DNA of 64,000 nt from Immundisolibacter sp. Lineage in GTDB: Bacteria > Pseudomonadota > Gammaproteobacteria > Immundisolibacterales > Immundisolibacteraceae. Positions within the stretch are counted from its first letter, which is position 1. The number at the start of each line of letters is the position of its first letter. The translations under genes and the position numbers were made by a program. The notes under the pieces were generated by a model that had not been told where the DNA came from, ran no database searches, and saw only the letters and a program-made list of their open reading frames with translations. Location of the stretch: assembly GCF_014359565.1 (NCBI RefSeq), contig NZ_JACIZD010000005.1:1-64000 (forward strand), written 5' to 3'. Below, one piece after another: positions 9,159 through 61,589 of the stretch.

Positions 9159-9506
9159 TCACCAGCCACCGCTGCGGCCCAGGTCCTCGTGGATGATGAA
9201 GCGCTCGGGCGGGAAGGTCTTGGTGACGATGGGCGAGTTGAAGCGCTCCACCGGCGCCGAGGCCTCCACGAAGGCGAACGCCAGGTTCAGCAGGTTTTCC
9301 TCGGCCGCCGGCAGGGCGCCCAGCGGGAAGCCGTTCAGGTGCTGGATGATGGCATCGAAGCGCGGCATGACGGCGTCGTAAAAGGCACGAATGCGCTGCA
9401 TGTCGGCACTGATGCGGGCGCGGTTGCGCGCCGCCTCGGTGTCGTGCAGCCAGTACTCGCACAGCGGTTCGAGGTCCGCGAAGGCGTTGGGTAGACGTGC
9501 GCTCAT
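9159..9506 (-). CDS. small partner protein of Rieske oxygenase (unrecognised family)
   Basis: A 115-residue mostly helical protein located 31 bases after the Rieske oxygenase gene and probably co-transcribed with it; a clear AGGAG precedes the ATG. It shares the core FY-x4-PR-x-DAIIQHLN and a following Leu-rich helix with the protein at 61160-61483, which sits in the same place behind the other Rieske gene. It is shorter than a normal dioxygenase beta subunit (about 160-190 residues). Function unknown; a dedicated subunit or assembly factor is an inference from the duplicated pairing. Confidence 0.8.
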   Translation of the reverse strand: MSARLPNAFADLEPLCEYWLHDTEAARNRARISADMQRIRAFYDAVMPRFDAIIQHLNGFPLGALPAAEENLLNLAFAFVEASAPVERFNSPIVTKTFPPERFIIHEDLGRSGGW

Positions 9507-9537
9507 GGGATGTGTCTCCTGGTGTTGAACCGCCCGC

Positions 9538-10761
9538 TCAGGGCCGGCGGCCGTTGACCCACTCGTCGGCCACCCAGTACTGGTGGCGCATGGCGATCTC
9601 GGTGTCGCCGATGGTCTGCTCGGTGATCACGCCCGAATCGAAGGCCTTTTGCGAGTACTCCATGGTGCTCATGTCCTCGTACACCGTGTCGCGCAGCACG
9701 ATGCGCGTGAACTCCTGCGCCAGCCGGTCGCCGGCGGTGTCGGCCTGCACTTGGTAGATGTTCATGTTCCAGATGGTGTCGTTCTCGGACACCGGCCAGA
9801 AGTTGTAGGTGAAGTACCAGCCGCGGCCCAGATCGCAGAAGAAGTTCGGGAAGAACACGTTGATGTCGAACCACCACGACTCGTCACCCGACGGATTCAG
9901 GCCGCGCGAGTCCCCTTCGTCGGCCTTCACGAAGCCGAAACTGCCGTGCTTGTAGGCGATCGCCTCGGCCGGCGTGGGCTGGATGTCGGTCTTGAGCCAG
10001 CACGACACCGAGCGGTGCGGGCCGTAGAAGCGCACCGAGGTCGGCAGCGCCAGCTCAAGATCACCGGCGCCCGGAATGGCGTGCCGGTGCAGGTAGGTGG
10101 CGTGGTAGGCCTCCTGGAAGGCATCGATGCACAGCTTCCAGTTGGCCTTCACGCGCGCCGTGTAGTGGGCGATGTGCTGGCACTGGTCGAACGGAAAGCC
10201 GTCCATGTCCTTGGCCAGTTGCCCCATGAACTCGGCCAGCGACTGCTTCGGCTGCGGATTCCAGTGCACGAAGATGAAGCCGTTCCAGGTGTCGCAGGCC
10301 AGCGCCTTCAGACCCAGCTTGTCCTTGTCCAGGCCGGGGAAGGACTCGATCGCCGGCACCGCCTGCAGGCTGCCGTCCAGACCAAAGCCCCAGCCGTGGA
10401 ACTCGCAGGTGAAGCCGCGCATGTTGCCGCAGGCTTCGGTCGCCAGCGCCATGCCGCGGTGCGTGCACATGTTGTGGAAGGCGCGCACCGCGCCGTCCTT
10501 GCCGCGCACCACCACGATGTTGCTCTTGAACACGTGCAGCTCGCGCGTGAAGTAGTCGCCCGGATTGGGGATTTCCTCCACCCGGCCGACCTGCAGCCAG
10601 GCCTGCTTGAAGATCTGCTCGCGCTCGCGCTCGAAATACGCGGCCGAGGTGACCGACTCGGCCGGGATCGGCCCGCTGCCCATGTCCGGCACCGGCGTGC
10701 CGAATTTCATCGCGTGACGCGGGCTGAACGGAAACGTGACCGGCGACTGCGGGGCGTTCAT
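9538..10761 (-). CDS. Rieske non-heme iron oxygenase, large subunit
   Basis: A 407-residue ring-hydroxylating-type oxygenase. The Rieske [2Fe-2S] ligands are C99-x-H101 (MCTHRG) and C119-x2-H122 (CEFHGW). The catalytic domain shows D213-AFQEAYH-x4-H, giving iron ligands H220 and H225, with a probable third ligand at D363 in VYEDMSTME. AGGAGGAG precedes the start. No ferredoxin or reductase gene lies nearby, so electrons must come from elsewhere. The substrate cannot be read from sequence. A second paralogue lies at 59924-61138. Confidence 0.92.
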   Translation of the reverse strand: MNAPQSPVTFPFSPRHAMKFGTPVPDMGSGPIPAESVTSAAYFEREREQIFKQAWLQVGRVEEIPNPGDYFTRELHVFKSNIVVVRGKDGAVRAFHNMCTHRGMALATEACGNMRGFTCEFHGWGFGLDGSLQAVPAIESFPGLDKDKLGLKALACDTWNGFIFVHWNPQPKQSLAEFMGQLAKDMDGFPFDQCQHIAHYTARVKANWKLCIDAFQEAYHATYLHRHAIPGAGDLELALPTSVRFYGPHRSVSCWLKTDIQPTPAEAIAYKHGSFGFVKADEGDSRGLNPSGDESWWFDINVFFPNFFCDLGRGWYFTYNFWPVSENDTIWNMNIYQVQADTAGDRLAQEFTRIVLRDTVYEDMSTMEYSQKAFDSGVITEQTIGDTEIAMRHQYWVADEWVNGRRP

Positions 10762-10921: not shown

Positions 10922-11674
10922 CTACTTCGAGCGCATGCCCCCGTCCACGCGCAGCACCGTGCCGGTGATGTAACGCGCCTCGTCGGAAGCCAGGAACACC
11001 ACCGCGGCGGCGATTTCGTCGGGCTCGGCCCAGCGCCCCAGCGGCGTGCCCTGGGTGATGAAGCCGGCCACTGCCGGGTCGGCGATCAGGTGTTCCGTCA
11101 TGCCGGTCTTCACGCCGCCGGGCGCCACGCCGTTCACGCGCACGCCGTGGGCGGCGGCTTCGACGCCGATCTGGTTGATCAGACCAATCGTGGCGTACTT
11201 GGAGGCCGTGTATGCCGCCCCGCCGCCGCCAGCGCCCAGCCCGGCAACCGAGGCCGTCATGACGATGTTGCCGCCGGTTTTCTTCAGTTCCTTGAAGGCC
11301 GCCTGGCAGGTGAAGAAATAGCCTTTCACATTGACGCCGATGACGCGGTCGAACAGCGCCTCGTCGATGTCCGTGAAAGGCAAAAAGCCGTCGAACACGC
11401 CGGCGTTGGCGAACACCACGTCCAGCTTGCCATGCGCCGCCACGGCTGCCGCGACCAGTGCCTCGACGCTGGCTTTGTTCGTCGCATCGACTGCCGTGAA
11501 AGCCGCCTTGCGGCCGTTGGCGCGGATATCCGCCGCCACAGCCTCGCCGGCCTTGGCGTTGATGTCACCGATCATCACCGCCGCGCCCTGGGCGGCAAAG
11601 GCCCGCGCCGTCGCCGCGCCAATCCCTGAACCGCCGCCGGTGACGATCACCGACTTGCCGTCGAAGCGTGCCAT
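10922..11674 (-). CDS. short-chain dehydrogenase/reductase
   Basis: A 250-residue classical SDR. The cofactor motif TGGGSGIG lies near residues 11-18, NAG is present, the catalytic Ser is in MTASVAGLG and the catalytic pair is YTASK. The NNVK-like segment reads GVNVKGYFF, and the C-terminal ITGTVLRVDGGM is typical. I chose the ATG at 11674, which has GGAGGAG upstream; the open frame before it (from 11797) is not SDR-like. It reads toward the Rieske gene with 160 bases and the TetR-like palindrome between them, so co-regulation is possible but not shown. Substrate unknown. Confidence 0.9.
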   Translation of the reverse strand: MARFDGKSVIVTGGGSGIGAATARAFAAQGAAVMIGDINAKAGEAVAADIRANGRKAAFTAVDATNKASVEALVAAAVAAHGKLDVVFANAGVFDGFLPFTDIDEALFDRVIGVNVKGYFFTCQAAFKELKKTGGNIVMTASVAGLGAGGGGAAYTASKYATIGLINQIGVEAAAHGVRVNGVAPGGVKTGMTEHLIADPAVAGFITQGTPLGRWAEPDEIAAAVVFLASDEARYITGTVLRVDGGMRSK

Positions 11675-59923: not shown

Positions 59924-61138
59924 TTAGCCGCGCCAGCGGCCGTTGACCATGTCGTCCACCACCTTGTACTGGTGGCGCACGGCCACTTCCTGATCGGACA
60001 GGATCACGTGCTCAATGGCGCCCGAGCTCAGGCCCGCCTGCGTGGTCTCCACGGTCGACAGATCCTCGCGCAGCAGGTCGCGCAGGTACAGCTTGGAGAA
60101 CTCACGGCTGATGCGTTCGCCGGCATTCCTGGGCGGCAGCATGTAGAAGTTGTACTCCCAGGCCGTGCGGTCCACCGCCAGCGGCCAGAAGTGGTAGGTG
60201 AAGAACCAGCTGCTGGACACGTCCACAAAGAAATTCGGGAAACACACGTTGATGTCGAACAGCCAGTTCGGGTGGCCCTCCGGGTTTGTGCCCGGCACGC
60301 GCTGCGCACCGGCATTGCCTTCGTGCAGCCACAGCGACTGGGCGTACTTGAACGACAGCGCCTCGGCCGGGCTCGGCTGGTAGTCCGGATTGAACGGCAC
60401 CGAGGCCGACCGGTGCGGGCCATACAGGCGCACCGAGGTCAGGTGCGCATAGGGATCATCTTGGGTGCAGCCGGCCGCGGTCGCGGTCAGCTTGTGCACG
60501 AAGCGGCCGTGGTAGGACTCCTGGAAGGCGTCCACGAACACCTTCCAGTTGCAGTTCACGTCGGCCCTGAGCGTGTGCATGCGCTGCATGGTGTGAAACG
60601 GAAAGTCCTTGATCTGCTCGCCGAAACCGCCCAGATACTGGGCCAGCGGTGCGGCGGCCGGATTGACGGTGACGAAAATGAAGCCGGCAAAGGTCTCGCA
60701 GCGCGCCGGCGGCAGACCCAACTGTGCACGGTCCAGATCGAAGAACACCTCCTCGTCCGGCACGAACACGCACTGCCCGGCCGTGTCGTAGGTCCAGCCG
60801 TGAAAGCCGCATGCAAAGCCCTTGGCATTGCCGCGGCCCTGGGCCACTTGGTTGCCGCGGTGGCGGCACACGTTGTGAAAAGCCCGCACCTCGCCGTCAT
60901 CACCGCGCACCAGGATGATCGAGGCCTTCAGGACGGCGATGTCCTTGACCACGTAATCGCCCGGCTTCTGGATGTCCTCGACGCGCCCCAAGTTCAGCCA
61001 GACCTTCCTGAAGATGGCCTCGCGCTCGCGCTCGAAATACTCGGGCGACACCACCGGCGCCACCGGCACGGGTCCGGTGCCAAGATCGGGGCACTGGCGC
61101 AGGTATGGATGCAGCGTGTCGACAGCGGGCTGGTTCAT
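59924..61138 (-). CDS. Rieske non-heme iron oxygenase, large subunit
   Basis: A 404-residue paralogue of the oxygenase at 9538-10761. Rieske ligands are C91-x-H93 (VCRHRG) and C110-x2-H113 (CGFHGW). The catalytic domain has D203-AFQESYH-x4-H (H210 and H215). The third ligand probably lies in LREDLSTVE. AGGAGG precedes the start. As in the first copy, a small helical protein gene is paired with it, though here it lies upstream. No electron-transfer genes are near. Substrate unknown. Confidence 0.92.
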   Translation of the reverse strand: MNQPAVDTLHPYLRQCPDLGTGPVPVAPVVSPEYFEREREAIFRKVWLNLGRVEDIQKPGDYVVKDIAVLKASIILVRGDDGEVRAFHNVCRHRGNQVAQGRGNAKGFACGFHGWTYDTAGQCVFVPDEEVFFDLDRAQLGLPPARCETFAGFIFVTVNPAAAPLAQYLGGFGEQIKDFPFHTMQRMHTLRADVNCNWKVFVDAFQESYHGRFVHKLTATAAGCTQDDPYAHLTSVRLYGPHRSASVPFNPDYQPSPAEALSFKYAQSLWLHEGNAGAQRVPGTNPEGHPNWLFDINVCFPNFFVDVSSSWFFTYHFWPLAVDRTAWEYNFYMLPPRNAGERISREFSKLYLRDLLREDLSTVETTQAGLSSGAIEHVILSDQEVAVRHQYKVVDDMVNGRWRG

Positions 61139-61159: not shown

Positions 61160-61483
61160 TCAGGCCGGCAGAATATGGAAACGGGCCGCGTCAAAACCCC
61201 ACGGCACGTCGGGGTCCTTGTAAATCTCGACCGCCGGCGCCACCTCCATGAACATCAGAGCCAGATCGAGCAGCGCCTGATCCCCGGGCGCAAGCGCCGG
61301 CAGGGATTGCTGGTTCAAGTGCTGGATAATGGCGTCCATGCGCGGCAGCAGCGTGTTGTAGAACGCCTGCAGGTCGGCCATGGACGAGGTCCGGCGCCTG
61401 CGGTTGCGCGCCGCCTCATCGCCGATCGCCCAGCCGGCTGTAATCAGGTGTTCGATATCCGCGAACTGGCTTGGTAATGCCAT
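61160..61483 (-). CDS. small partner protein of Rieske oxygenase (unrecognised family)
   Basis: A 107-residue helical protein, 21 bases upstream of the Rieske gene. It shares FY-x4-PR-x-DAIIQHLN and the Leu-rich helix LLDLALMFME with the protein at 9159-9506. GGAGGAG precedes the ATG at 61483. Gene order is reversed relative to the first module, where the small gene comes after the oxygenase. Function unknown. Confidence 0.8.
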   Translation of the reverse strand: MALPSQFADIEHLITAGWAIGDEAARNRRRRTSSMADLQAFYNTLLPRMDAIIQHLNQQSLPALAPGDQALLDLALMFMEVAPAVEIYKDPDVPWGFDAARFHILPA

Positions 61484-61589
61484 CGTTTTTTCTCCTCCTT
61501 GCACGGTCCCGGGCTATCCGGCCCGTCAAACCCCATGCTGGCGCAGTCCGAAGGCCGGCGCAAGCCCGACCGAATGATCGTTTAAACCC

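Follow-up and report, generated by a model that had tools for sequence, protein, structure and literature searches.

A small protein of unnamed family, predicted to be all-helical, is encoded almost without exception beside one branch of Rieske oxygenases (RHOs), in pollutant degraders, mycobacteria and other bacteria. It is not the usual beta subunit, and it is most likely a dedicated accessory subunit bound to the alpha trimer, although neither binding nor an effect on activity was assayed. We started from a window of 64,000 nucleotides (positions 1 to 64,000 of contig NZ_JACIZD010000005.1) in the 3.09-Mb genome of Immundisolibacter sp. (GCF_014359565.1). A sequence-only reading of this window had noted two Rieske large subunits, each next to a protein of 107-115 residues sharing the motif FY-x4-PR-x-DAIIQHLN, with a different gene order at the two loci. 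That observation was confirmed, and it proved far more general than could be seen from the window. The coordinates, sizes, shared motif and order swap were all correct, but the motif is typical of a few copies of the family only.

Two gene pairs in the window and their paralogues

Both pairs lie on the minus strand. In the first, an RHO alpha gene (9538-10761, 407 aa) lies upstream of the small ORF (9159-9506, 115 aa), with a gap of 31 bp. An SDR-family dehydrogenase gene (10922-11674, minus strand; about 250 aa from the ATG, with a longer TTG frame reaching 11797) is found upstream of the RHO gene and is a probable member of the same operon. It matches adh_short_C2 (1.3e-59), the match starting at residue 44-57 of the long frame. 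In the second pair, the small ORF (61160-61483; 107 aa from the ATG, or 114 aa from the upstream GTG at 61504) lies 21 bp upstream of its RHO alpha gene (59924-61138, 404 aa), and no other co-directional gene is close by. BLASTP comparisons showed that the small proteins are 45% identical over 102 aa (E 2e-25) and the RHOs 46% identical (E 8e-122). Both RHOs exceed the Pfam cut-offs for PF00355 and PF00848 (100 and 123 bits for the latter), and the first harbours the C-x-H and C-x2-H Rieske ligands, the 2-His-1-Asp iron ligands and a Glu at the bridging position. The G+C content of the 115-aa ORF is 0.90 at codon position 3 against 0.45 at position 2, as for a real gene in this genome.

The genome harbours eight copies of the small protein, each with an RHO of one subfamily beside it, and thus the term 'duplicated' used in the sequence-only reading understates the situation. 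A third pair is found on the same contig at 74512-76028, about 11 kb past the end of the window. At 270 kb on another contig (C1), a gene for a flavin-dependent oxidoreductase, LLM-type as judged from its sequence, stands between the RHO and small genes, all on one strand. Relatives of the same order carry 4 to 18 copies. The 2.2-Mb genome of 'Gammaproteobacteria bacterium ljb5' (genome G459, with the same contigs as G007) has 18 copies of the small protein and more than 20 subfamily RHOs, several of them in tandem arrays. Some of these RHOs lack a neighbouring copy and may share one in trans. The substrates of the two enzymes of the window are not determined, but the lineage includes Immundisolibacter cernigliae, a PAH degrader with many RHO paralogues (PMC9535955).

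Genetic linkage between the small protein and one RHO subfamily

To determine whether the linkage is general, we first collected 80 named loci from genome contigs using an alignment of the RHO subfamily. A profile of the small family detected the small gene in 69 of them, in Mycobacterium, Mycolicibacterium, Nocardia, Rhodococcus, Streptomyces, Parafrankia, Novosphingobium, Sphingomonas, Pandoraea, Paraburkholderia, Pseudomonas, Pseudomaricurvus, Binatia and Myxococcota. The family is therefore spread over several phyla. An earlier scan of 398 Pseudomonadota genomes, with a profile built mainly from Immundisolibacterales sequences, had found almost nothing outside the order and thus underestimated the family, as the later searches showed. 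One weak hit of that scan covers half the profile and has no RHO nearby; it is probably spurious.

As those 80 loci had been chosen by their RHO, we performed the reverse analysis with the small protein as the query. In 22 genomes, 87 of 90 copies lie within 1.2 kb of a subfamily RHO gene on the same strand, with the small gene downstream in 76 cases and upstream in 11. Of the three others, one sits beside a broken RHO gene, one is at a contig end, and one, in Novosphingobium sp. MW5, is a true orphan located between TetR-like and aldo/keto reductase-like ORFs. That genome also has one orphan RHO of the subfamily 0.7 Mb away, and the two might represent a split pair. In new draws of 101 genomes of the Mycobacterium family and 142 alphaproteobacterial genomes, 16 and 8 genomes, respectively, carry the family (seed genomes included). 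All 49 newly fetched loci, one of them from a genome seen before, have a subfamily RHO gene within 150 bp on the same strand, with the small gene downstream in 38 and upstream in 11. Eleven of 22 alphaproteobacterial pairs have the reversed order, and hence the two arrangements recur. The sequence-only reading had proposed that its idea would fall if the small family were mostly found away from Rieske genes; these counts show that it almost never is.

Conversely, 81 of 93 RHOs of the subfamily (E<1e-80 to the subfamily alignment) have the small gene within 1.5 kb, against 0 of 24 weaker RHO matches in the same genomes. The small protein is thus a very good genomic marker of the subfamily. The approximately 12 unpartnered members are concentrated in two genomes with 18 and 8 copies, and the partner may therefore act in trans or be dispensable for some RHOs. 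Of 74 pairs in which the RHO gene precedes the small gene, 29 overlap by exactly 4 bp, the usual sign of translational coupling. The distance matrices of the RHOs and small proteins are correlated, with r=0.89 over 101 pairs (0 of 500 permutations as high) and r=0.79 over 26 Immundisolibacterales pairs (0 of 2000). Nevertheless, this correlation partly reflects joint inheritance, and within single genomes it was weaker (r=0.66, n=6; r=0.48, n=8) or absent (n=5). Pathway neighbours differ widely between loci (SDR, LLM-type flavin oxidoreductase, CoA transferase, cupins, EthD, pyridine genes), while the small protein stays. Although both genes often lie in catabolic operons, it is thus very unlikely that the small protein is a mere neighbour without functional tie to the oxygenase, such as a separate enzyme of the same pathway or a regulator.

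A few loci appear to be decaying or mobile. In Cupriavidus necator C39 p1 (locus L155, 5841-6312), a small gene is preceded by only the last codons of an RHO gene and followed by a cupin-like ORF, consistent with a decaying pair. In lindane-degradation plasmids (Sphingobium MI1205 pMI1, MM-1 pISP4 and S. indicum B90A pSRL1), the small gene follows linC and an EthD-domain gene and is bounded by IS6100; in pMI1 and pISP4, a truncated RHO gene of the subfamily lies across another IS6100. This suggests that the linC segment derives from an SDR-EthD-small-RHO operon broken by IS6100. In Sphingobium RSMS pRSMS1 (locus L147, 2308-9001), an RHO alpha and small pair is flanked by two IS21-type ISRsp3 copies in a composite-transposon-like arrangement. 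This pair is reminiscent of the phenylurea N-demethylase genes pdmAB of Sphingobium YBL2 (Gu et al. 2013), a sphingomonad RHO alpha gene with a 'beta' gene on a mobile element without linked electron carriers. No hit to the small family was reported in the YBL2 plasmids of the collection, and as the sequence and fold of PdmB were not examined, the relationship was left undecided. A second candidate for a characterized member, 3-hydroxypyridine dehydrogenase HpdA of Ensifer, was suggested by the pyridine cluster of Variovorax WDL1, but we rejected it because a citing paper describes a CoxG homologue in that enzyme.

Predicted fold of the small protein and features of the partnered oxygenases

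The small proteins, mostly 104-134 aa long, gave no meaningful match in Pfam or NCBIfam for the members scanned, and none in the PDB by sequence. A possible designation as 'recombinase-like helix-turn-helix' protein found no support in the open papers searched and no HMM match. The AlphaFold2 model of the 115-aa protein, built with 68 sequences, has a pLDDT of 92.1 and a pTM of 0.81, with four helices (residues 7-19, 24-33, 36-57 and 67-89) and no strands. Foldseek searches of the PDB yielded a best E value of 1.1, and the best VIA-align Z score was 4.0, below the level that is meaningful for helical bundles, so that these comparisons neither identify nor exclude a related solved fold. Among 101 sequences, the conserved residues are P6 and R27 (101 each), R31 (100), W19, L72 and E87 (97 each) and F9 (96), in the numbering of the 115-aa protein. 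No Cys or His is conserved, and hence it is not a metalloprotein of a usual kind.

That the small protein might prove to be an ordinary divergent beta subunit was the other outcome named in advance as a refutation. Its genomic position is right for a beta gene, but the predicted fold is all-alpha instead of the NTF2-like alpha+beta cone fold, and no match to PF00866 or to SnoaL/NTF2 HMMs was found in Pfam or NCBIfam. Furthermore, five operons, in Variovorax WDL1, Acinetobacter SH20PTE14, Novosphingobium EMRT-2 and plasmids of Azospirillum and Paroceanicella, have the order RHO alpha - small - (cupins) - SnoaL/NTF2 protein, often followed by a ferredoxin gene. Pfam searches confirmed SnoaL domains, not PF00866, in those proteins. 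We therefore rejected this possibility. The Azospirillum and Paroceanicella plasmids share an operon of unknown substrate, RHO alpha - small - cupin - cupin - NTF2 - ferredoxin - asparaginase-annotated gene. In the alpha3beta3 enzymes, such as naphthalene, biphenyl and cumene dioxygenases, the alpha subunit similarly has Rieske and PF00848 domains and is encoded with a small non-catalytic partner, but that partner is an NTF2-fold protein and the bridging residue is Asp, while the protein described here is shorter, predicted to be all-alpha and unrelated by HMM.

All 101 partnered RHOs examined have the four Rieske ligands and the invariant His, His and Asp iron ligands, and all 101 have Glu at the bridging position usually held by Asp. 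Profile alignment places this Glu on E205 of the carnitine monooxygenase oxygenase CntA (PDB 6y8j, 6y9c), which was shown to be essential for intersubunit electron transfer (PMC7948474). CntA is the closest solved relative of the subfamily by profile (E 6e-56) and by fold, although the similarity lies mainly in the Rieske domain and the metal ligands, with about 20% identity in the structural match. CntA is an alpha3 trimer without a partner subunit. The scores against the NCBIfam GbcA equivalog, 118.7 and 104.5 bits, are below its cut-off of 670 bits, and oxidation of quaternary amines was not assayed. Orphan RHOs of the subfamily also have the Glu, which is thus a subfamily trait and not proof of partner binding.

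No electron donor genes were seen near the first pair of the window or near the other pairs of this genome that were inspected, the genes being judged by composition and by eye rather than by HMM. Elsewhere, the linked donors are either PDR/VanB reductases, as in the Rhodococcus and Cupriavidus loci that consist of alpha, small and reductase genes, or ferredoxins. The description of the pair as a possible two-component oxygenase type was thus only partly right, as the pair is the oxygenase component and not a whole system.

A putative accessory subunit

The sequence-only reading had suggested a new subunit, an activator or an assembly factor; this interpretation is supported, in that our data favour a subunit but do not exclude the other two. 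What our analyses establish is that the small protein is encoded next to the alpha subunit in nearly every genome examined, usually with overlapping or nearly touching reading frames, that its divergence follows that of its RHO, that it is predicted to be a compact four-helix protein without conserved metal-binding residues, and that it is not the NTF2-fold beta subunit. By contrast, we infer, with reasonable but not high confidence, that it binds the alpha subunit stoichiometrically, probably on an alpha3 ring of the CntA kind, because the partnered RHOs use a bridging Glu as CntA does and CntA needs no beta. Beta subunits stabilize the hexamer and take part in redox-partner docking (PMC12445004, PMC9361823). 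In this view, the small protein would stabilize the trimer and/or shape the side where the electron donor docks, doing by another fold what beta does in alpha3beta3 enzymes, with the near-invariant W19, R27, R31 and E87 as candidate contact residues. We modelled the second pair of the window as a single read-through chain of 519 aa (small-TGA-RHO in frame, TGA read as Gly), using an alignment with 8 RHO rows because MAFFT misplaced the small rows when many RHO rows were given. The model had a pTM of 0.80 and a modest RHO part (mean pLDDT 79), the first 100 residues of the small domain having pLDDT values of 88-98; without an inter-domain error estimate, it does not prove docking.

Two other roles appear less likely. 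The small protein might be an assembly or maturation factor that binds nascent alpha, helps insertion of the [2Fe-2S] cluster or iron, or trimer formation, and then leaves. A small helical protein translated with its client would fit this possibility, as would the RHOs without their own copy in multi-copy genomes, which suit a sharable chaperone; given the absence of conserved Cys or His, a scaffolding role would fit better than a metal carrier. However, the presence of roughly one copy per RHO in most genomes and the co-divergence with the RHO suit a dedicated subunit better than a general chaperone, and RHOs of other subfamilies in the same genomes have no copy beside them. Still less likely, it could bind transiently to gate electron entry from ferredoxin or reductase, like the regulatory proteins of some other oxygenases. 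In the alpha3beta3 cumene dioxygenase, a beta-subunit Arg and an alpha-subunit Lys form the ferredoxin site (PMC9361823), and the small family has two near-invariant Arg residues. Nevertheless, its occurrence beside both reductases and ferredoxins shows that it is not tied to one donor type.

The alpha subunit belongs to a known superfamily, whereas the partner family is unnamed in the libraries searched and annotated as 'hypothetical protein'. A 2025 review of Rieske oxygenases (PMC12445004) lists no extra helical subunit, although our literature search covered only open papers. It is about as likely as not that a further architectural class of Rieske oxygenases exists, widespread in Actinomycetota and Pseudomonadota, in which a Glu-bridged alpha trimer carries a helical subunit of a protein family not yet described, required for full activity and overlooked because of its annotation. 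Oxygenases of this branch are annotated as stand-alone alpha subunits, and expression of alpha alone may yield inactive enzyme if the partner is needed. The pair also makes a general question testable, namely what the non-catalytic subunit of a Rieske oxygenase is for, since an unrelated fold seems to sit in that place here, sometimes together with an NTF2-type protein. Lastly, our analyses give a family to many 'hypothetical protein' entries in mycobacteria and pollutant degraders.
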